A stretch of 10,964 bases of DNA, from positions 1 through 10,964 of the forward strand of contig DUJX01000124.1 of assembly GCA_013329575.1 (NCBI GenBank), in the 5' to 3' direction. Within the stretch, counting starts at the first letter, position 1. The number at the start of each line of letters is the position of its first letter. A program made the position numbers and the translations under genes. Source of the stretch: Halobacteria archaeon (GTDB taxonomy: Archaea > Halobacteriota > Methanoliparia > Methanoliparales > Methanoliparaceae). Positions 2,295 to 10,964 of the stretch are shown piece after piece. The notes beneath the pieces are model-generated. The model was not told the origin of the DNA and did no database searches. It saw nothing but the letters and a program-made list of their open reading frames with translations.

Positions 2295-2335
2295 ATGGTA
2301 ACAATACATTCTTATTTATCGGTGGGGTGTATATC

Positions 2336-2776
2336 TTGGATGATTATTTGGAAAAGATGTTAAAGATGCAAGACGAGTTGGACTCTTTTATTTTAGAGAA
2401 GAATAATGCAAACCCTACGTTGGTGGACAAATGCGTGGCACTATTGGTAGAAAGTATAGAGTTTATAGAGGAATGCGGATATAAGTGGTGGAAAAAACCA
2501 AAAACTAACGATTCGTCACTCCAATCTGATACAAGGTCCGATGATAATATATATAAAGATAAATTGAAGTGTAGGTCCATCCTACAAGGGAGTGTCTCAA
2601 GCCAAAGGATTGAAGCCTACAAATCCGAGATCCGTGATGAAAGGCTTAAAGAAGAATTGATAGATATTCTTCATTTTTGGTTATCTATCTGTAATTCATT
2701 AAATTTAAATTCAGAAGAAATATTTAAGATCTATAAGAAAAAATGGGAGATTAACTTTGAGAGGCAGAATGAGTGA
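2336..2776 (+). CDS. all-alpha dUTPase/MazG-like nucleotide pyrophosphatase with an insert
   Basis: The protein resembles the dimeric all-alpha dUTPase family, related to MazG, which hydrolyses dUTP (or other NTPs) to the monophosphate and pyrophosphate using Mg2+. Signs are the N-terminal helix LEKMLKMQDELD, then LLVESIEFIEECGYKWWKKP with metal ligands E39xxE42, then RLKEELIDILHFWLSICNSL with E107xxD110, and a C-terminal YKKKWEINFERQ. Substrate dUTP is inferred from family likeness and the pyrBI neighbour; another NTP is possible. The two metal motifs are separated by 64 residues, much more than is usual. The extra part (about residues 58-92) is polar and low in conserved features, and coincides with a palindromic DNA element. 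The start is TTG at 2336 because GGGGTG (2324-2329) is then correctly spaced; a GTG at 2327 would overlap that site and add three residues. Confidence 0.72.
   Translation: MDDYLEKMLKMQDELDSFILEKNNANPTLVDKCVALLVESIEFIEECGYKWWKKPKTNDSSLQSDTRSDDNIYKDKLKCRSILQGSVSSQRIEAYKSEIRDERLKEELIDILHFWLSICNSLNLNSEEIFKIYKKKWEINFERQNE
2512..2598 (+). repeat. palindromic element, copy 1, in frame inside the dUTPase-like gene
   Basis: An outer stem is formed by CACTCC (2517-2522) and GGAGTG (2589-2594), both perfect. Inside it, TCTGA/TCCGA (2525-2529 and 2537-2541, one mismatch) encloses a loop containing ACAAGG, and TGTAGG TCCAT CCTACA (2570-2586) forms a perfect 6-bp hairpin. An AT-rich stretch (2542-2566) joins the two. 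The order and sequence blocks match the reverse strand of the element at 10861-10936. The element has no stop codon in the host frame and encodes most of the protein's extra residues. Boundaries are approximate. A further GGATT/AATCC repeat follows at 2607-2626 and may or may not belong. Confidence 0.55.
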
Positions 2777-2853
2777 TCCAATAAAATCTCGATTTTGATT
2801 AAATTAGAATATCATCCGATTGCATTTATTAGGTTATTATATGATGCAACAAA

Positions 2854-2861
2854 TTTATATA
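2854..2861 (+). promoter_or_regulatory. candidate upstream TATA box for the ribosomal operon
   Basis: The octamer TTTATATA is preceded by an A-run (aaa, possible BRE context). It would start transcription near 2884 and give a leader of about 190 bases to L3. It is identical to the octamer at 2943-2950, so tandem promoters are possible. Assignment is by sequence and distance only. Confidence 0.3.
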
Positions 2862-2873
2862 GTGGAATATTGT

Positions 2874-2943
2874 AGAGCTACTACTTAAATGGTCTCTAAG
2901 TAAGAATAGATTGCAACCATCTGGATAAAATGTTGTAGTCTCT
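2874..2943. other. possible structured region before the L3 promoter
   Basis: AGAG-ct-ACTAC (2874-2884) can pair with GTAGT-CTCT (2935-2943), giving nine base pairs with a two-base bulge. Within it, TACTTA (2882-2887) and TAAGTA (2897-2902) form an alternative perfect 6-bp hairpin, and AGAT/ATCT flank TGCAACC. The pairs are partly mutually exclusive. No conserved RNA family is recognised. In AT-rich DNA such pairings can arise by chance. Confidence 0.25.
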
Positions 2944-2950
2944 TTATATA
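2943..2950 (+). promoter_or_regulatory. candidate proximal TATA box for the ribosomal operon
   Basis: TTTATATA lies 126 bases before the L3 start. Start-site spacing of about 26 bases predicts initiation near 2973 and a leader of about 100 bases. The leader contains the hairpin CAATAAA GTT TTTATTG (2987-3003). This is the better placed of two identical octamers. Confidence 0.45.
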
Positions 2951-2986
2951 CCGACTAAAAATATTAATACGAATGTTCATAAAGAT

Positions 2987-3003
2987 CAATAAAGTTTTTA
3001 TTG
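2987..3003 (+). other. small perfect hairpin in the L3 leader
   Basis: CAATAAA and TTTATTG form a perfect 7-bp inverted repeat around the three-base loop GTT. It is AT-rich and therefore weak, and would lie about 15 bases into the mRNA if transcription starts near 2973. A regulatory role is possible but not shown. Confidence 0.3.
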
Positions 3004-3075
3004 GGGATTCTCAATAGAACTCAAAAATACCAAGTCTAAATTTATTCAGATAAAATTTTAAAACAGGAGAGAAAA

Positions 3076-4080
3076 ATGCCAAAGATACATCGTCCAAAAC
3101 GTGGATCACTCGCGTTTAGTCCAAGAAAACGGGCAAAAAAGGAACGGGTTGGGTTTAAAACTTGGCCAGAATCGAGCGAGACAAAATTATTGGGTTTTGC
3201 GGGATATAAAGCAGGAATGACATATATAGTATTTAAAGATGAACGAAAAAACAGTGTAACTAATGGTGACAGTGTATTTTGTCCTGTAACTATAATAGAA
3301 ACACCAAATATCAGGGTAGCAGGTATCAGAGCGTATACTAAGACATATGAAGGGTTAAAACCATTAACAGAAGTATGGACAACAAATTTGGAAGAAGATG
3401 TACAAAGAAGAACATCTATTCCGAAAAATAAAAATATAGATGATTTTACAAGAATAGAAGATAATCTCGATCGGGTGTCAGAGATTCGGGCAATCGTCTA
3501 TACAAAACCCTTTTTGGTCAAGGGCGTTCCCAAAAAATCGCCAGACATTATGGAGATAAAGATCGGTGGAAGCGATATTAACGATATCTTTGAATATTCT
3601 AAAAAGATCCTCGGAAAGGATTTAAATATAAAAGATATATTATCAGAGGGAGATTTTATCGACGTCTCTGCGGTAACGGTAGGAAAAGGGATACAGGGAG
3701 CAGTAAAACGATGGGGTATAATCACTCAAAACGAGAAGCAGGGACGAGGCGGAAAACGGAGACACATTGGAAATTTGGGACCATGGTTTCCATCGAGGGT
3801 AAGATGGACCGTTCCTATGGCTGGACAGATGGGATATCATAAACGAACGGAATATAACAAAGAAATTCTTAAAATAGGTGATAAAGGGAGTGAGATTACT
3901 CCTGCGGGTGGATTCGTTAATTATGGCATCGTCAATAATCCATATATTATGGTTAAGGGAAGTATTCCGGGACCGAATAAGAGGTTTATTGGTATAAGAA
4001 CGGGTATACGGATTAATCCAAATAGACAGACCATTTTAGGTTCACCTATTGAATATATAAGTTTAGAATCGCAGCAATGA
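3076..4080 (+). CDS. rpl3: 50S ribosomal protein L3 (uL3)
   Basis: L3 is an early-assembling large-subunit protein whose long loop reaches toward the peptidyl-transferase centre. At 334 residues it has the archaeal/eukaryotic length; bacterial L3 has about 210. The basic N-terminus is typical (MPKIHRPKRGSLAFSPRKRA), followed by FAGYKAGMTYIV (41-52) and GKGIQGAVKRWGI (about 202-214). The conserved core GNLGPWFPSRVRWTVPMAG leads into GQMGYHKRTEYNK, and VNYGIV and VKGSIPGPNKR lie near the C-terminus. The ATG is preceded at six bases by GGAG. It is the first gene of the ribosomal operon, and its stop is six bases from the L4 start. Confidence 0.98.
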   Translation: MPKIHRPKRGSLAFSPRKRAKKERVGFKTWPESSETKLLGFAGYKAGMTYIVFKDERKNSVTNGDSVFCPVTIIETPNIRVAGIRAYTKTYEGLKPLTEVWTTNLEEDVQRRTSIPKNKNIDDFTRIEDNLDRVSEIRAIVYTKPFLVKGVPKKSPDIMEIKIGGSDINDIFEYSKKILGKDLNIKDILSEGDFIDVSAVTVGKGIQGAVKRWGIITQNEKQGRGGKRRHIGNLGPWFPSRVRWTVPMAGQMGYHKRTEYNKEILKIGDKGSEITPAGGFVNYGIVNNPYIMVKGSIPGPNKRFIGIRTGIRINPNRQTILGSPIEYISLESQQ

Positions 4081-4086
4081 TGTTTT

Positions 4087-4848
4087 ATGAGTACTGTAAA
4101 TATATTAAGCATTGATGGGAGCATAAAAGAGACTGTTGAGCTGCCTGATATATTTGATGAGCCATATAGGCCAGATCTGATCAAGAAGGCAGTATTATCT
4201 CTTCAGTCACGAAGATACCAGCCGCATGGTGTAAAGCCATATGCGGGGTACGATACATCTGCAAAGTCTTGGGGTGTCGGACGGGGAGTTTCGAGGATTT
4301 CTAGGATTAAAAATGGGAGGAGAGCTGCTAGGTCTCCGGGGGCCGTTGGTGGTAGAAGAGCGCATCCACCAAAAATAGAAAAAATTTTTGATGAGAAGAT
4401 TAACAAAAAAGAGATGAAAAAAGCGCTTAAATCGGCCATTGCGGCTACTGCAAATCTCGATCTGGTTGCTTTGAGAGGTCACCGTATAGAGAATTTGGCG
4501 CTTCCTCTCGTGGTAGAGGAGAAGATAGAAGAGATCGACAAGACGAAGAGTTTAGAAAATATACTAAAAAACGTTGGGGTATCGGCCGATATTGAACGGG
4601 CTAAGGATGTAAGAATACGAAACGGCAGAGGAAAGATGAGAGGCAGACGATATAAAGGCAAAAAAAGCATTCTTTTTGTTGTTAAGGATGATAAAGGCAT
4701 TGGTTATGCAGCAAGAAACTTGGCCGGTGCTGATTTTTGTACGGTTGATAATTTAAACGTAGAGTTGCTCGCGCCCGGAACGGATGCTGGAAGATTGGTT
4801 GTATGGTCTGAGTCGGCGTTAAAAACATTAAAAGAGAGGAACGGGTAG
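4087..4848 (+). CDS. rpl4: 50S ribosomal protein L4 (uL4/L4e)
   Basis: L4 binds 23S rRNA, and its extended loop lines the nascent-peptide tunnel. The 253-residue protein has the archaeal L4/L1e form. LPDIFDEPYRPDLIKKAV opens the globular domain. The basic tunnel loop follows (about residues 64-97, GRGVSRISRIKNGRR and GAVGGRRAHPP). The later conserved part has ALRGHRIE, RNGRGKMRGRRYKGKKS and RNLAGADFCTVDNLNVELLAPG. It ends with the usual SESALKTL. The start ATG lies in a small six-base gap after L3, and the L3 stop region is close enough for coupled translation. L23 begins four bases after its stop. Confidence 0.98.
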   Translation: MSTVNILSIDGSIKETVELPDIFDEPYRPDLIKKAVLSLQSRRYQPHGVKPYAGYDTSAKSWGVGRGVSRISRIKNGRRAARSPGAVGGRRAHPPKIEKIFDEKINKKEMKKALKSAIAATANLDLVALRGHRIENLALPLVVEEKIEEIDKTKSLENILKNVGVSADIERAKDVRIRNGRGKMRGRRYKGKKSILFVVKDDKGIGYAARNLAGADFCTVDNLNVELLAPGTDAGRLVVWSESALKTLKERNG

Positions 4849-4852
4849 ATTT

Positions 4853-5101
4853 ATGATTCTTAAAAGACCGATCACGACAGAAAAATCAATGTTATACTTG
4901 GAGAACAGTAATACTATCTGTTTTATCGTTGATAATAAAGCAGACAAGGAGCGTATTAAAAAAGAGTTTGAGGCGACATACGAGGTAAAAGTGGACAAAA
5001 TAAATACGATGATGACTACCAATGGTGAAAAAAAAGCTATGATAAAGATATCCGATGAATATAATGCAGAAGATATCGCTATAAAACTTGGGCTAATGTG
5101 A
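4853..5101 (+). CDS. rpl23: 50S ribosomal protein L23 (uL23)
   Basis: L23 sits at the polypeptide exit and docks the signal recognition particle and the translocon. The 82-residue length is the short archaeal form without the bacterial hairpin extension. Recognisable parts are the start ILKRPITTEKSM, the strand NTICFIVDNKADKERIKKEFEATYEVKVDKINTM split over residues 18-51, and the C-terminal KAMIKISDEYNAEDIAIKLGL. It lies four bases after L4 and six bases before L2, in the expected order. Confidence 0.97.
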   Translation: MILKRPITTEKSMLYLENSNTICFIVDNKADKERIKKEFEATYEVKVDKINTMMTTNGEKKAMIKISDEYNAEDIAIKLGLM

Positions 5102-5107
5102 TCAAAA

Positions 5108-5833
5108 ATGGGTAAAAGAATAATATCTCAAAATAGAGGTAAGGGAACTCCAACATATAGGGCTCCGCCTAAAAGGCGTAAAGAGCCGTTGGTCCATCCA
5201 AAAACGGATGTAAGCGATACTCTCAGTGGTGAGATCATCGAATTGGTTCACGATCCTGCAAGAAATTCTGTTTTTGCCAAAGTAGCCATTGAAGTTGGTA
5301 ATGATAAGATTGTTAAACCGATTTTGGCAGTAGAAGGAAGTTACGTTGGCCAGAAGATTTTCTTTGGTAATAATGCAGAATCAACCATTGGAAACACGCT
5401 TCCTTTATCCAAGATTCCGGATGGTTCATTGATTTGCAATATTGAATCAAAACCTGGAGATGGCGGCAAATTTGTGAGATCTACAGGTACATATGCAACT
5501 GTAATCTCTCACGAGGGGGATAAAACATATTTAGAGTTACCTAGCGGAGTAAAAAAAAGAATAAACTCTAAATGTAGGGCAACTATTGGTATTGTAGCCG
5601 GTGGAGGAAGAAAAGAGAAACCTTTTGTGAAAGCAGGAAAAAGGTATTATTCTCTAAAGAGCAAAGCTGCCAAGTATCCGAGAACGAGTGCAGTTAAAAT
5701 GAACTCTGTAGACCATCCATTTGGTGGTGGTGGGCATAAGCATATAGGTCGGCCTAAGACTGTCTCGAGAGGTACATCACCAGGTAGAAAAGTTGGTTCT
5801 ATCAGCGCTAAAAGAACGGGTAAGAGGAGATAA
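5108..5833 (+). CDS. rpl2: 50S ribosomal protein L2 (uL2)
   Basis: L2 binds 23S rRNA at the subunit interface and is needed for subunit association and for peptidyl-transferase activity. The 241-residue length is normal for Archaea. The OB-fold part includes EIIELVHDPARNSVFAKV (about 42-59). The SH3-like part carries LPSGVKKRINSKCRATIG. The conserved C-terminal loop VDHPFGGGGHKHIGRP starts at V201, with H203 matching the histidine implicated near the catalytic centre. A basic tail (SAKRTGKRR) ends the protein. The ATG follows the L23 stop by six bases and S19 starts three bases after its own stop. Confidence 0.98.
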   Translation: MGKRIISQNRGKGTPTYRAPPKRRKEPLVHPKTDVSDTLSGEIIELVHDPARNSVFAKVAIEVGNDKIVKPILAVEGSYVGQKIFFGNNAESTIGNTLPLSKIPDGSLICNIESKPGDGGKFVRSTGTYATVISHEGDKTYLELPSGVKKRINSKCRATIGIVAGGGRKEKPFVKAGKRYYSLKSKAAKYPRTSAVKMNSVDHPFGGGGHKHIGRPKTVSRGTSPGRKVGSISAKRTGKRR

Positions 5834-5836
5834 ACA

Positions 5837-6244
5837 ATGGTAAAAAAAGATAGGAAGGTTCAAAGAGTAGCAAAGACGTATACTTATCGAGGATATACTT
5901 TAGAAGAGTTACAAAAGATGGATATAGACACCCTCTCAGCAATCTTGCCTTCAAGGATAAGAAGGAAGATTAAACGGGGGTTTAGAGATGATGAGAAAAA
6001 TTTGTTAAAAAAGATAAAAGAGAAGGATAACGTCAGGACACATTTAAGAGACATGATCGTACTCCCATCGATGGTCGGAAGGACCGTTAAGATACATAAT
6101 GGCAAAGAGTTTGTATCCGTCGAGATTCAGCCCGACATGATAGGACATTATTTGGGCGAGTTTGCATCGACACGAAAAGAGGTAAAACACGGAAGTGCTG
6201 GTTTGGGAGCTACGAGATCGAGTAAGTTTATACCATTGAAGTGA
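5837..6244 (+). CDS. rps19: 30S ribosomal protein S19 (uS19)
   Basis: S19 lies in the head of the small subunit near the A-site tRNA. At 135 residues it is the archaeal/eukaryotic (S15e-like) form, with an N-terminal extension ([20 protein letters not shown]). The core begins at [24 protein letters not shown] (split, about residues 72-95). It ends with the conserved [30 protein letters not shown] across residues 105-133. Only three bases separate it from L2. The next gene's ribosome-binding site, GAGGTG, overlaps its stop region. Confidence 0.97.
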
Positions 6245-6254
6245 GGTGTTTTAG

Positions 6255-6731
6255 GTGCCTAACAAACATAAATATTCTGTTAGAGAGATAGACCCGCTCC
6301 ATGATGCTGTATCTTATGGGAGGGAATTACCTATCTCTTATAAACATTCTGTAGAGATCTGTAGGACGATAAAAGGTATGAGATTGGAGAGCGCTAAAAA
6401 TTATTTAAACGATGTTATCTCTTTGAAGAAAGCGGTACCGTTCAAAAGGTTCAATAAGAAAGTGGCACATAGACGTAACATAGATGGATGGGATGCCGGT
6501 AGGTATCCTAAAAAGGCGTCGATGGCAATATTACGATTATTGAATAATCTGGAAAAGAATGCCGAGTATAAAGGGCTTGAAGTGGAGAACTTGATGATCA
6601 AACATGCGAGTGCAAGCAAAGGTCACGTCACGAAGAGTTATTTTCCACGTGCGATGGGCAGAAGCACCCTTAAAAGAAGAATTACTACGAATATAGAGTT
6701 ATTAGCAAAAGAGATAGGAAGTGAAGAATAA
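6255..6731 (+). CDS. rpl22: 50S ribosomal protein L22 (uL22)
   Basis: L22 contributes a beta-hairpin to the exit tunnel. The 158-residue length and the archaeal sequence fit, with SYGRELPISYKHSVEICRTIKGM at the N-terminus, AVPFKRFNKKVAHRR, and GRYPKKASMAILRLLNNLEKNA (each shortened or split here; positions roughly 22-102). The start is GTG at 6255. GAGGTG at 6243-6248 is correctly placed upstream, and the protein then begins PNKHKYSV like its relatives. S3 begins immediately after the L22 stop with no spacer. Confidence 0.97.
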   Translation: MPNKHKYSVREIDPLHDAVSYGRELPISYKHSVEICRTIKGMRLESAKNYLNDVISLKKAVPFKRFNKKVAHRRNIDGWDAGRYPKKASMAILRLLNNLEKNAEYKGLEVENLMIKHASASKGHVTKSYFPRAMGRSTLKRRITTNIELLAKEIGSEE

Positions 6732-7394
6732 ATGTCTATAGAACGTAAATTTATATCTGAATCTATAGAAAAGACTCGACTGAGTGAATTTCTTGCTAAA
6801 TCTTTGAGTAATGCTGGTTATGGCGGATCTGAGATTAACCGAACTCCATTAGGTACTCAGATTATCACTTATGTAGAAAAGCCCGGTCTGGTCATCGGTA
6901 AAGGCGGAGAGAATATAAGAAGTATCACGGAAGAGGTTAAACGAAGATTCAAGTTCGATAATCCTCAGATCGAGGTATTAGAGGCAAAAAAAACAAGGCT
7001 AAATCCTTTGATTATGGCGAATAAACTTGCAAATCTGCTCGAGCGAGGATGGTATTTTAGAAGAGCAGGGCATTCTATACTGAACGAGATTATGGGTGAG
7101 GGTGCTCTCGGATGTGAGATAAAGATCTCGGGAAAGCTCACAGGACCGAGGGCGAGAACAGAAAAATTCATTAAAGGTTACATGATTCATTCGGGAGAGC
7201 CTGTATATGATATCGTAGAGACAGGTTTTGCGATCGCCAAGAAGAAGTTGGGAGTCATAGGTGTGAGTGTTCGTATCCTGCCTCCTGATGCAAAATTACC
7301 CGACAAATATAATATCTTGGATATAGTAGAGACAGAGACGGTTGAAGAAGAGAAGACAAAAGGTGATGCTGTTGGTAGTGACGAAAGCGAGTGA
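6732..7394 (+). CDS. rps3: 30S ribosomal protein S3 (uS3)
   Basis: S3 is at the mRNA entry tunnel of the small subunit and has helicase-like unwinding activity in the family. The N-terminal KH domain carries the nucleic-acid-binding loop GKGG (56-59) in KPGLVIGKGGENIRSI. The C-terminal S3 domain includes ERGWYFRRAGHSIL and GALGCEIKISGKLTGPRART (split, about 96-140), followed by GVIGVSVRILPPDAKLPD. The 220-residue length is archaeal, and the last 20 or so residues are acidic. There are no bases between L22 and S3. Its 3' end overlaps the L29 start by 17 bases. Confidence 0.98.
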   Translation: MSIERKFISESIEKTRLSEFLAKSLSNAGYGGSEINRTPLGTQIITYVEKPGLVIGKGGENIRSITEEVKRRFKFDNPQIEVLEAKKTRLNPLIMANKLANLLERGWYFRRAGHSILNEIMGEGALGCEIKISGKLTGPRARTEKFIKGYMIHSGEPVYDIVETGFAIAKKKLGVIGVSVRILPPDAKLPDKYNILDIVETETVEEEKTKGDAVGSDESE

Positions 7395-7584
7395 GATACG
7401 TGAGATGGATAGGGATAAGAGAGAGAAGACTCTAAAAAATCTTCAATATAATCTTATCAAGAGACGCGGCGAGATATCAAGCGGTGGGGCATTGAAAAAT
7501 CCTGGTGAGATAAAAGAGATTAGAAGGGCGATAGCGCGTATTAAGACTGTTGAGAACGAGATTAGAAGAAAAGAAAGAGACTAA
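7378..7584 (+). CDS. rpl29: 50S ribosomal protein L29 (uL29)
   Basis: L29 is a small two-helix protein next to the exit tunnel. With the GTG start at 7378 it has 68 residues, the normal size, and begins TKASEIREMDRDKRE, matching archaeal relatives. The archaeal signature is GGALKNPGEIKEIRRAIAR (about 36-54). An ATG at 7342 and others at 7363-7366 are in frame, but they would place the ribosome-binding site AAGGTGAT (about 7360-7367) inside the gene. That site is well spaced for 7378. The gene overlaps S3 by 17 bases, so translation is probably coupled. Confidence 0.93.
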   Translation: MTKASEIREMDRDKREKTLKNLQYNLIKRRGEISSGGALKNPGEIKEIRRAIARIKTVENEIRRKERD

Positions 7585-7617
7585 TAGTGAAAAATAATAG
7601 ATTAATATATCGATGAG

Positions 7618-7914
7618 ATGAGATTAAAACCTGACAATATCCTATATCATGAATTGATTGGATTGAATGTCCGAATAAAAGATTCGGTTAATCCCTGTCT
7701 GATCGGATTGAGTGGTAAAATAATAGACGAGACAAAAAATTTGGTTATAATCCAACAAGATGCGTCTATAAAAAAAATTTCGAAGATAGGGACAAAATTT
7801 GTCTTTAGAAATCCTAAATGTAACGAATCTTGGAACGAGATCCTTGTAGATGGGTCATTATTGTTGGGTAGACCTGAAGATCGAGTTAAAAAAATGACAT
7901 TAAAAAAGGGGTAA
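7618..7914 (+). CDS. rnp1: ribonuclease P protein component 1 (Rpp29/Pop4)
   Basis: This is the archaeal homologue of eukaryotic Rpp29/Pop4, a protein subunit of RNase P, which removes 5' leaders from pre-tRNAs. In the archaeal enzyme it pairs with Rpp21 and binds the specificity part of the RNA. The 98-residue protein is a small Sm-like beta-barrel. ILYHELIGLNVRIKDSVNPC (about 8-27) leads into the strand GLSGKIIDETKNLVII, with KFVFRNPK and DGSLLLGRPEDRVKK at the end. It starts 33 bases after L29 without a strong ribosome-binding site, the largest gap in this part of the operon. It is followed three bases later by S17. Confidence 0.93.
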   Translation: MRLKPDNILYHELIGLNVRIKDSVNPCLIGLSGKIIDETKNLVIIQQDASIKKISKIGTKFVFRNPKCNESWNEILVDGSLLLGRPEDRVKKMTLKKG

Positions 7915-7917
7915 ATT

Positions 7918-8232
7918 ATGAGTGCGATTGGGTATAATGTTCCTATTCCAAAAGAACAATGTAATGATCCGACCTGTCCTTTCCATGGATCTTTGTCGAT
8001 ACGAGGGCAGGTCTTTGTAGGTGAAGCGGTGAGTCAGAGCGAGGGTACTGTTGTCGTAAAGAAAGAACGAAACCATTATGTAAAGAAGTACAAAAGGTAT
8101 GAACGGAGAACATCTAAGATTCATGCACATACTCCACCATGCATCAAGGTGAATAAAGGAGATACTGTAAGAATAGCCGAGTGTAGGCCTATCTCCAAGA
8201 CGGTATCTTTTGTCGTGATTGAAAAATTATAG
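7918..8232 (+). CDS. rps17: 30S ribosomal protein S17 (uS17)
   Basis: S17 binds 16S rRNA helices 7 and 11 and is an early assembly protein. The 104 residues are the archaeal form, related to eukaryotic S11. An N-terminal extension with the archaeal [10 protein letters not shown] (15-24) is present. The OB-fold follows, with [21 protein letters not shown] (split; about 27-47), [16 protein letters not shown] and [19 protein letters not shown]. The start ATG lies three bases after the rnp1 stop. A G-rich AAGGGG before that stop could serve as its ribosome-binding site. Confidence 0.97.
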
Positions 8233-8243
8233 TCTCTATAATC

Positions 8244-8251
8244 TATAAAAT
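8244..8251 (+). promoter_or_regulatory. candidate internal TATA box giving a leaderless L14 mRNA
   Basis: TATAAAAT lies in the 38-base gap between S17 and L14. Its centre is about 24-25 bases before the L14 ATG, which is where transcription should begin in Archaea. The L14 start has no Shine-Dalgarno of the GGTGAT kind found before many genes here. Together these suggest an internal promoter that produces a leaderless or nearly leaderless transcript. Confidence 0.4.
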
Positions 8252-8270
8252 AACTTAAAACGAGATAAAT

Positions 8271-8669
8271 ATGAAATCAATAAAATCAAATGTCTCAAAA
8301 GCTCTTCAAAAGAAGTCTAGATTGGTCTGTGCAGATAATAGTGGAGCTAAATTATTAGAGATAATCGCGGTTAAAGGATACAGAGGTGTTAAACGAAGAT
8401 ATCCAAAAGCTGGTATCGGTGATGTTGTAGTAGTGAGCATAAAGAAAGGTGTCCCTGAGATGAGAAAACAGGTATCAACGGCAGTGATAATAAGACAGAG
8501 AAAAGAATTTAAGAGACCGGACGGTTCTACAATACAGTTTGAAGATAATGCTGCCGTTCTTATGGACGAAACAGGAGAGACTAAAGCATCAGAAATAAAA
8601 GGACCTGCAGCTAGAGAGGCCGCCGAGAGATTTCCAAAGATTGCGTCTTTAGCGTCTATCATAATATAA
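8271..8669 (+). CDS. rpl14: 50S ribosomal protein L14 (uL14)
   Basis: L14 is a five-strand barrel protein at the subunit interface next to L19/L24e and is the target of ribosome silencing and anti-association factors in the family. The 132 residues are archaeal. [20 protein letters not shown] (about 18-37) is the family hallmark, followed by [33 protein letters not shown] and NAAVLMD, then [18 protein letters not shown]. The gap to S17 is 38 bases, longer than elsewhere in the operon, and contains a TATA-like box. L24 follows 11 bases later with GGTGA before it. Confidence 0.97.
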
Positions 8670-8680
8670 GGTGAATAAAA

Positions 8681-9052
8681 ATGGTTAAAAGTATAAATAC
8701 TATATCTAAACAGCCGAGAAAACAACGAAAGTTTCTCTACACTGCACCGTTTCATATCAGACAAAGCTTTGTGGGTGCGCATCTTAGCAAGGAATTAAGG
8801 GACGAATATGGTAAGAGGAGTATACCTGTTGTAAAAGGTGACAAAGTTCTCGTGGTTAGGGGCGACGATGACGGTAAAGAGGGAAAAGTCTTGAACGTTG
8901 ATCTTAAAAAGGTAAGAATATTTATTGATGGTGTATCGTTGGTAAAGTCTGATGGGACCGAGGTTCCGAGAGCAATACATCCTTCTAATGTAATTATAAC
9001 AAAATTAAATTTGGAAGACGAAGAAAGAAAGAAACTTTTGGAGAGGAGATAG
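8681..9052 (+). CDS. rpl24: 50S ribosomal protein L24 (uL24)
   Basis: L24 is one of the first proteins to bind 23S rRNA, near the tunnel exit. The 123-residue archaeal/eukaryotic L26-like form begins with [19 protein letters not shown] (split; about 9-26). It has the KOW motif in [21 protein letters not shown] (split; about 49-67). It ends with [15 protein letters not shown] residues (here [16 protein letters not shown]). AAGGTGA lies a few bases before the ATG. The stop is one base before the S4e start codon. Confidence 0.97.
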
Positions 9053-9053
9053 A

Positions 9054-9752
9054 TTGACAGCATATCAAAAGAGATTATCGGTACCTAATCTTTATCCTAT
9101 CAACAAAAAAAGCAATAAATGGGTTGTAAAGTCTAATCCGGGCCCTCATTCGTATGAAAAGAGTGTTCCTTTATTGATTCTGCTTAGAGAGTATTTAAGG
9201 AAGGTAGATACGAAGAAAGAGGCAAAATATGTACTAGAGAACGGGTTGGCGCTGGTAGATGGTAGGGTACGTAAGGCATATCGGTTCCCTATAGGTTTAT
9301 TCGATGTTATAACTCTTGTACCTGAAAAAGTAAGTTACCGAGTATTACTGACATCTAAAGGCAACTTGACTTTGAAACAGGTGGAAGATGCCAATGTTAA
9401 GTTATGCAGAATAAATACAAAACAAAAGGTGAAGGGTGGAGCGATTCAGATAGGATTACACGATGGAACGACTTTGCAGGTTAGTGAGGATTATAAGACT
9501 AAAGATTCCTTGCTCTTATCTATTCCAGATAAAAAGATCTTGAAACATTTAAGATACGAAGAGGGATCATTGGTTATGATTACCGATGGTAAACAAGTAG
9601 GAAGAATAGGTAAGATAAAACAGATTGAGATAAAAGAGGGGTCCAGTCCAAATATAGTTACGATTGAATCACAAAATGGTACTTTTGACACAACAGACGA
9701 TTATGTATTTGTTATTGGGGAGGATAAACCAGAATTGGGTGGATTGATATGA
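9054..9752 (+). CDS. rps4e: 30S ribosomal protein S4e (eS4)
   Basis: S4e is found only in Archaea and eukaryotes, so its presence in the spc cluster supports an archaeal origin. The 232-residue protein starts QKRLSVPNLYPI and has WVVKSNPGPHSYEKSVPLL (about 23-41). The S4-like RNA-binding part follows (REYLRKVDTKKEAKYVL and VDGRVRK), with the central S4e domain and a KOW-like segment GKQVGRIGKIKQIE around 180. The start is TTG at 9054 and is supported by GGAGAGGAGAT just upstream. The TGA stop overlaps the L5 start as ATGA. Confidence 0.97.
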   Translation: MTAYQKRLSVPNLYPINKKSNKWVVKSNPGPHSYEKSVPLLILLREYLRKVDTKKEAKYVLENGLALVDGRVRKAYRFPIGLFDVITLVPEKVSYRVLLTSKGNLTLKQVEDANVKLCRINTKQKVKGGAIQIGLHDGTTLQVSEDYKTKDSLLLSIPDKKILKHLRYEEGSLVMITDGKQVGRIGKIKQIEIKEGSSPNIVTIESQNGTFDTTDDYVFVIGEDKPELGGLI

Positions 9753-10276
9753 CCGAGGCTATTGAATATAAAAACCCGATGAGAGCACCCCACGTATATA
9801 AAGTCGTGGTACATATTGGTGTAGGAGAGAGCGGTACTAGGCTTACTAACGCGATGAAAGTTTTAGAAACGATAACAGGGCAAAAACCTACCAGAACTTT
9901 TGCCAAAAAGACGAGACCTGCGTTTGGTATTAAGAAAGGCGAGCCAATCGGGTGTAAGGTTACTCTTCGTAAGAAGAAAGCGGATGCGTTCTTGAAGAAT
10001 GCGTTAAATGTTATTAATTATACGTTATACGAGGATCAATTTGATGATACGGGTAATTTTTCCTTTGGAGTTGTAGAACACTTGGGATTTCCAAATATCA
10101 AGTACGATCCGGCTATTGGAATATTTGGTATGGATATCGTCGTATCAATCGAGAGGCCTGGTGTACGTGTAAAAGCGAGAAGAATAAAGAGAGGGACTAT
10201 CCCCAGATCGCATAGGATTAATAAAGATGAAGCGGTCAATTTTGCAAAATATCAATTAGGAATTAAGGTGATTTAA
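9749..10276 (+). CDS. rpl5: 50S ribosomal protein L5 (uL5)
   Basis: L5 binds 5S rRNA and contacts the P-site tRNA in the central protuberance. The 175-residue length is archaeal. Conserved parts are [21 protein letters not shown] (split; about 9-28), [33 protein letters not shown] spread over 43-75, [21 protein letters not shown] and the end [14 protein letters not shown]. It overlaps S4e by four bases. The S14 ribosome-binding site GGTGAT lies inside its last codons. Confidence 0.98.
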
Positions 10277-10277
10277 A

Positions 10278-10451
10278 TTGAACAGCAATGATAAACATTC
10301 CGGACCAACAAACAAGATTTTTGGCCGTGGTGCAAATAAATGTTATAGATGTGGGCGAAGACAGGGGCTAGTTCGTAGATATAACTTGTATCTATGCAGA
10401 CAATGTTTTAGAGAATTAGCCGGAAGTTTGGGATTTAAAAAATATTGGTGA
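10278..10451 (+). CDS. rps14: 30S ribosomal protein S14 (uS14, zinc type)
   Basis: This is a 57-residue gene that short-gene filters could miss. S14 is in the head of the small subunit, close to S3 and S10. The zinc-binding pair of CxxC motifs is complete: C22-C25 (CYRC) and C40-C43 (CRQC). Around it are [20 protein letters not shown] (starting at residue 16) and [13 protein letters not shown] at the C-terminus, typical of the archaeal/eukaryotic S29 form. The start is TTG at 10278, the only suitable in-frame codon, with GGTGAT (10267-10272) upstream. It begins one base after L5 and ends six bases before S8. Confidence 0.95.
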
Positions 10452-10457
10452 TTTAAA

Positions 10458-10847
10458 ATGTTACTCGATCCTTTAGCAAACTCGTTATCTATAATTAAGA
10501 ATGCAGAGAAGAGTGGTAAACCTGAATGTATTCTTAAACCTGCATCAAAGTTAATAGGCAATACTTTACGAGTGTTCTATAAAAAAGGGTATATTGGTGA
10601 GTTTGAATTTATAGAAGACGGGCATGGGGGCAGATTTAAAGTAAATCTTATCGGAAAGATCAATAATTGTGGTGTGATAAAACCCAGGTTTTCCGTTAAG
10701 ATGGAAGAATTCAATGTATGGGAAGAAAGATATCTTCCTGCTAAGAACGTAGGTAGTATGATCATATCTACTCCAAAAGGAATTATTTCTCATCAAGAGG
10801 CAGAAGACCTGAATACAGGCGGAGTGCTTATAGCATTTGTATATTAA
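10458..10847 (+). CDS. rps8: 30S ribosomal protein S8 (uS8)
   Basis: S8 binds helix 21 of 16S rRNA in the central domain and acts in autogenous control of the spc operon in bacteria and reportedly in some archaea. The 129 residues are the archaeal form, related to eukaryotic S15a. MLLDPLANSLSIIKNAEKSGK starts the protein (split here). KGYIGEFEFIEDGHGG, IKPRFSVKMEEF and YLPAKNVGSMIISTPKG follow, ending EDLNTGGVLIAFVY. The ribosome-binding arrangement before it is identical to that of S14. The next 100 bases are non-coding, the longest gap within the ribosomal operon in this window. Confidence 0.97.
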   Translation: MLLDPLANSLSIIKNAEKSGKPECILKPASKLIGNTLRVFYKKGYIGEFEFIEDGHGGRFKVNLIGKINNCGVIKPRFSVKMEEFNVWEERYLPAKNVGSMIISTPKGIISHQEAEDLNTGGVLIAFVY

Positions 10848-10860
10848 ATTGAAAACAGAT

Positions 10861-10936
10861 GTTCTTCACTCCTGTATAAGGTAAACCTACACCGTGAGAT
10901 CATAATCCTGCCTTGTGCAGGACGGGAGTAAAGAAC
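10861..10936 (-). repeat. palindromic element, copy 2, between S8 and the next gene
   Basis: A 15-position stem joins 10861-10875 (GTTCTTCACTCCTGT) to 10922-10936 (ACGGGAGTAAAGAAC), with one C-A mismatch and one T-G wobble. Immediately inside the right arm is a perfect 5-bp hairpin, CCTGC/GCAGG with a five-base loop (10907-10921). On the left side AGG/CCT (10879-10888) can pair. Read on the - strand, it shows ACTCC, CCTGC, ACAAGG, GTGTAGGT and ACAGGAGTG in that order, as in copy 1 at 2512-2598. It could also work as an RNA structure in the operon mRNA just before the next gene. Which strand is functional is unknown. Confidence 0.7.
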
Positions 10937-10947
10937 CAAAGGTTTTT

Positions 10948-10964
10948 ATGACTATAAATGTAAA
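10948..10964 (+). CDS. possible start of the next ribosomal gene (L6 expected)
   Basis: An ATG at 10948 is preceded by AAAGG at 10938-10942, spaced like a ribosome-binding site, and reads M-T-I-N-V before the edge. In archaeal spc operons L6 normally follows S8, which makes L6 the expectation. Too few residues are visible to recognise a protein, and a later ATG is possible, so this is inferred from gene order only. Confidence 0.3.

Follow-up and report, generated by a model that had tools for sequence, protein, structure and literature searches.

The window examined here, the whole stretch of 10,964 nt (contig C5) taken from the genome G000 (1.24 Mb, 162 contigs, 85 % complete), carries pyrI, pyrB, a dUTPase_2 gene and a ribosomal protein cluster running from L3 to S8, with most gene names assigned by eye from translations. 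It also holds two palindromic elements, one lying in frame inside the dUTPase gene (2510..2645, + strand) and one downstream of the S8 gene (10861..10936, − strand), and both display the sequence blocks and stems ascribed to them in an initial annotation of this DNA. The best named relative is Candidatus Methanoliparum thermophilum NM1a (locus L055; L3 protein 89 % identical, next match 52 %), and a single other genome of the genus, G001, was present among the genomes searched. Our analysis indicates that the two copies are probably lineage-specific, non-autonomous palindromic insertion elements, which settle between genes and inside functional sequences that tolerate them. Such elements are dispersed across the genomes of the family of Ca. 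Methanoliparum, methane-making archaea, between genes as well as inside them.

The two copies in the window

The dUTPase_2 gene (2327..2776, + strand; 149 residues; Pfam PF08761, 70 bits) contains a composite hairpin element whose edges, at 2510 and 2645, are good to approximately 10 bases. In its first half (2518..2593, +), ACTCC (2518-2522) pairs with GGAGT (2589-2593), a stem evident from the sequence, the model alignment and the fold, and encloses an ACAAGG hairpin and a TGTAGG/CCTACA hairpin (2570-2586). The initial annotation had placed the right edge of this copy at 2598. Rather, homology continues to approximately 2645 and takes in a 45-bp double hairpin (DH) module (2594..2638, +), which reads VSSQRIEAYKSEIRD in frame 0 and scores 49 bits with a DH model (R2) whose training set includes this copy. 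A separate model (R1), built from five copies with the 2512 copy excluded, detected the element at 2511-2602 with a score of 22.1 bits (E value 9.2e-4 on the window, 0.104 genome-wide). The proposed kinship of the two window copies did not emerge from their direct local alignment (score 17, reached by 292 of 2000 dinucleotide shuffles); it is found by way of intermediate copies on contigs C121 and C133, with which window positions 2505-2655 align at scores of 52 (0/2000 shuffles reach it, maximum 31) and 34 (0/2000, maximum 30), respectively.

In both dUTPase homologues compared, those of genomes G002 and G004, the interval from the WWKK motif to the ELIDILHF motif is shorter by 40–41 residues (2/2). 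M. thermophilum provides no empty dUTPase site, because all that is left of the gene there is a short piece upstream of L3 (L055 9773-9925). The insertion cannot be placed in a predicted dUTPase structure, as the single-sequence prediction is too weak (mean pLDDT 62, residues 52-78 below 50), and an NCBIfam search with the dUTPase protein matched no family. Searches of Rfam returned 0 matches for window region 2400-2800 (up to an E value of 0.1) and 0 matches for the whole window at gathering scores. The initial annotation, which recognised no known family, missed both the in-frame insertion in the dUTPase gene and the precedent of protein-coding palindromes in Rickettsia.

The second copy follows the ribosomal protein S8 gene (10458..10847, +; Pfam PF00410) and spans 76 bp, in which positions 10861-10872 pair with 10925-10936 to form a 12-bp outer stem that encloses three hairpins. 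In M. thermophilum, L6 comes directly after S8 with no element between them. Used as a query against G000, this copy (10861-10936, −) found 14 places up to an E value of 10, of which ten, counting its own, lie below 0.01; its best non-self matches had E values of 7.2e-12 to 6.6e-6. The last 54 bases of the window (10911..10964) are identical to contig C22, where they cover an element edge and the start of an nrdG-like gene (named by eye). Because the window end equals C22, and C22 is syntenic with M. thermophilum on both sides, the right part of this copy and what follows it may be mis-joined. L6 begins at base 13 of contig C12, and the assembly probably broke at the S8–L6 repeat.

Dispersed copies built from a few hairpin modules

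The initial annotation had proposed a dispersed family of small palindromic elements, and further copies were indeed found: in addition to the 14 places above, R1 returned 29 matches in G000 (up to an E value of 1, both strands counted). At an E value of 0.01, R1 matched two of 41 genomes, namely G000 and G001. The DH model reached further, matching all five genomes of the taxonomic family and none of the 35 others of the phylum, with at least 17, 84, 60, 53 and 48 matches per family genome (both strands counted; no more than 150 candidates were scored per genome, making these counts lower bounds). In 40 further archaeal loci totalling 684 kb, some of them from kin of Methanocaldococcus though not from M. 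jannaschii itself, it returned no match up to an E value of 1, and a search of phage records with the element returned eight records with short, weak matches.

The 76-bp form is bounded by a 12-bp outer stem (GTTCTTTACTCC with GGAGTGAAGAAC, plus variants) and carries three hairpins. Larger copies (approximately 75–330 bp) combine a small set of hairpin modules into mosaics, often enclosed by a GTTCTTCACTCC/GGAGTGAAGAAC outer repeat, the largest being a 329-bp stretch in C55. Four hairpins recur, TGTAGG..CCTACA, GTCCWGC..GCWGGAC, GCAGGAACC..GGTTCTGC and CAAATC/CGAATC..GATTTG, and were counted 5, 8, 9 and 28 times, respectively, in a sample of G001, compared with 1.6, 0.2, 0 and 0.2 times in local shuffles, while the outer-end motif was barely enriched (29 vs 23.8); these motif counts are biased, as both samples were picked partly for matches.

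The commonest unit is the 45-bp DH, and its hairpins are conserved by covariation. In an alignment of 27 DH copies (A3), 94.3 % of cells are standard pairs, and the 59 two-sided changes exceed the 16.3 obtained by shuffling (a value as high arose in 0 of 500 shuffles), a signal that is abolished by shifting the pairing partner. The alignment draws on 35 DH-like rows and omits L158 10017, L130 10484, L136 1938 and L140 7205 (mixed modules), L138 8393 and L139 16271 (shifted loops), L189 1504 (one and the same copy as L174 13719) and L178 2815. Frame 0 of the DH is open in 27/27 aligned copies, genic or not, and in 33/35 DH-like rows, the stops falling in the dropped rows L158 and L138 8393, and similar peptides recur in the same frame (VSSQRIEAYKSEIRD, VSNQRFEAHKSKIFD and VTNQRFVAHKSKICD).

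Two further observations concern the form of individual copies. The C80 element (L158, approximately 9906-9991) has roughly 90 bp of other sequence in the loop of its second hairpin, as if elements nest. Two truncated copies (L160 4573-4620 and L161 at approximately 6990; contigs C8 and C140) adjoin N gaps beside tRNA genes.

Filled and empty sites and insertions within genes

Alignment of G000 contigs to G001 stretches identified 12 sites filled in G000 only, nine of them with both flanks aligned, and three filled in G001 only. The nine comprise C55 (329 bp vs 7 bp), C22 (150 vs 6), C39 (199 vs 34), C43 (129 vs 11), C133 (199 vs 41) and C121 (529 vs 107), along with C80 (198 bp), C109 (208 bp) and C162 (98 bp), at which the flanks overlap in G001 by 28, 4 and 10 bp, respectively. 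Weaker cases are C122, with its right flank cut at the contig end, C8, where the element is cut by an N gap, and the S8–L6 site of the window, which aligns by its left flank alone. The sites filled in G001 only lie between the L18 and S5 genes, after the L29 gene and at L139 18882-19088. After its own L29 gene the window has an empty site (7579..7590), where M. thermophilum has a 128-bp DH-containing element.

The comparison is not clean throughout. The empty G001 site at C22 retains a small hairpin, which speaks against a simple filled/empty picture, and no clean comparison is possible at C61, where the G001 sequence is a different one. Altogether, the G000 and G001 stretches show 28 length differences of at least 50 bp, 15 with element motifs on one or both sides and 13 without. 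One of the 15 motif-bearing differences, the gene-containing L149 5946-6691, probably matched by chance. Of the 13 motif-free differences, 11 were inspected by eye and revealed no arrays of known hairpins.

Several protein genes carry element-type segments that their homologues lack. Compared with its G001 counterpart, the G000 mevalonate kinase contains an additional 55 residues. When the enzymes of four genomes are aligned, element-type segments appear at different positions: G000 has its segment in the N-terminal third, G002 in the middle and G003 near the C-terminus, whereas that of G001 lies at the C-terminus itself and looks in the alignment like a replacement and not a clean insertion. 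In G001, 15 residues of CofE are absent in 4/4 homologues (G000, G002, G003 and G005), and 15 residues of FlaI are absent in 3/3 (G000, G002 and G003). No module smaller than the 45-bp DH behaves like an insertion. A segment in the HMG-CoA reductase of G002 is likewise absent in 2/2 homologues (G001 and a Micrarchaeota homologue). DH copies also lie in open reading frames (ORFs) for which no homologues were compared, encoding a thymidylate synthase relative, RqcH, DUF92, IorA and an unnamed protein in G001, and two pieces of a hydroxyproline-dehydratase-like protein in G002.

When 28 DH copies were checked, ten proved to lie inside ORFs of at least 160 codons and to be flanked there by 25 codons or more on either side; nine are read in frame 0 (six in the same and three in the opposite orientation) and one in frame 1. 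The DH-touching ORFs of L167 (RpoB start), L140, L174 and L187 were not counted as insertions because the start or end of the gene is uncertain. Insertion is not restricted to protein genes, as a full-length match to archaeal RNase P RNA (162 bits) contains the C133 copy, at the place where G001 has 41 nt; the variable helix that it extends is presumably P12. The mobility of the elements, suggested by the initial annotation, is supported by sites that are filled in only one of two related genomes, with cases in either direction, and by in-gene insertions absent from the compared homologues.

Mevalonate kinase (L150, L143, L220 and L221) and HMG-CoA reductase (L225) belong to the isoprenoid precursor pathway, and enzymes of this pathway recur, perhaps by chance, among the genes with elements. 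The match to the FlaI-like gene of G000 (C60 10632-12532) is split between two different open frames, of 581 and 93 codons, and the gene may therefore be frame-shifted in the assembly.

Nature of the elements and comparison with known systems

A number of points weigh against the reading of the two window copies as insertion elements. The mover was not found: no Y1 (RAYT) transposase (PF01797) was detected in the 85 % complete genome G000, in a search confined to this family and this genome. Exact 25-bp flank repeats occur at two of 16 sites (C80 and C122), the one at C122 stopping at the contig end, and the remaining 14 have no long flank repeat (longest ≤10 bp; random maximum 10 of 300). Not all sites are one-sided, because C55 6459-6576 and C6 are occupied by hairpin material in both genomes, with different modules. 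Covariation, strong in A3, does not rise above shuffles in an alignment of five copies (A2). Furthermore, the assemblies compared are drafts, with one possible mis-join within the window itself, whose end may be wrongly joined at the S8–L6 repeat, and it is from sequence that we infer the in-gene segments to be translated and tolerated.

We nevertheless favour insertion elements as the explanation of the two copies, with the following putative course of events. Elements would insert between genes and, where tolerated, in functional sequences, and the in-gene copies that survive would be the ones with an open frame in register with that of the host, at a site accepting a short segment. Such copies would be read as an extra segment of approximately 15 to 55 residues, and in RNase P RNA the element would lengthen a variable helix. 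Movement could depend on a putative trans-acting enzyme or on hairpin-driven repair or template-switch copying, with nothing favouring either, and, acting on hairpin DNA, may sometimes leave a flank repeat of approximately 25 bp. A bolder version, which we consider doubtful, is that of a recently or still active modular archaeal hairpin-insertion system, in which a putative enzyme copies 45-bp DHs, can leave a duplication of approximately 25 bp, builds mosaics and repeatedly adds translated segments to core enzymes, as the mevalonate kinase positions in four species might suggest.

Among the alternatives, the one that survives best is that the elements are classical miniature inverted-repeat transposable elements (MITEs), i.e. 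deletion derivatives of a DNA transposon mobilised by a transposase that recognises terminal inverted repeats, a possibility we entertain only tentatively. The elements resemble MITEs in being short and non-coding by themselves, in their inverted repeats and in their filled and empty sites; the terminal inverted repeat of many composite copies and the exact 25-bp flank repeats at two sites would also fit. However, the termini are variable, and in CofE and FlaI the DH module has inserted with no outer repeat around it; no constant flank duplication is apparent, a long repeat being missing at 14 of 16 sites. A parent transposon, as suggested in the initial annotation, was not met in the stretches read, the transposase search being limited to Y1.

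The other suggestion of the initial annotation, a repeated structured RNA (dispersed copies acting as regulators, terminators or stabilisers of mRNA and retained because of their RNA fold), would agree with stable hairpins maintained by compensating changes and with the many intergenic copies. It is nonetheless improbable, since near-palindromic copies fit R1 on both strands, Rfam yielded no match, sites differ between sister genomes and coding regions hold copies in both orientations. Mismatches on the coding strand of the ten in-ORF copies comprise 2 G-U and 9 A-C, so that G-U is not preferred; with matches on both strands and no enrichment of coding-strand wobble pairs, a role at the RNA level is not needed. 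The weakest alternative, that the in-gene segments go untranslated because the ribosome bypasses the hairpin, has in its favour the hairpins within genes and a precedent in the yeast mitochondria of Magnusiomyces capitatus, where, according to an excerpt of PMC6649704, palindromic elements are removed by translational bypassing, and is very unlikely given that the counted in-gene copies are stop-free, keep the frame and encode recurring similar peptides, none of which bypassing would require.

Regarded as insertion elements, the copies exemplify protein-coding palindromes, a way for selfish DNA to add segments to proteins that has seldom been reported. In this archaeal lineage, copies occur in two genera, filled and empty sites are found in close relatives, core enzymes and RNase P RNA are affected, and the same enzyme, mevalonate kinase, carries segments at different positions in four species; element movement and protein tolerance are thereby open to comparison.

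The mosaic build from several short palindromic modules is reminiscent of the repetitive extragenic palindromic (REP) sequences and bacterial interspersed mosaic elements (BIMEs) of bacteria. REP elements are typically extragenic and tied to Y1 (RAYT) enzymes, unlike the present elements, which have copies inside genes and for which Y1 was not found in G000. Among the papers listed by searches on archaeal or protein-coding palindromes, none deals with this family, and in the library searched none mentions both Methanoliparum and palindromes. The family probably belongs with the protein-coding palindromic elements, being a many-copy dispersed palindrome inserted in frame in unrelated genes and absent from their homologues, and it is not categorically new, because such palindromes are already known from Rickettsia and cited for Methanocaldococcus jannaschii. 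In the latter, palindromes are reported to be integrated in genes (Suyama et al. 2005, cited in PMC2996958), and, as far as the citing description goes, they resemble the present elements in being archaeal and lying inside protein genes. The Rickettsia palindromic elements (RPEs; Ogata et al. 2000, 2002), according to excerpts of PMC10969869, PMC2229807 and PMC3767692, are approximately 100–150 bp in length, dispersed and present in frame in many proteins, and occur in tmRNA and RNase P RNA genes too. As far as these excerpts describe them, RPEs share with the Methanoliparum-family elements the dispersed palindromes, the intergenic and in-frame locations in unrelated proteins, the similar peptides and the presence in RNase P RNA; in contrast to RPEs, the 45-bp DH inserts alone, larger copies are mosaic and the host is archaeal. 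Likened by behaviour and not by sequence, RPEs appear to be the closest known system.

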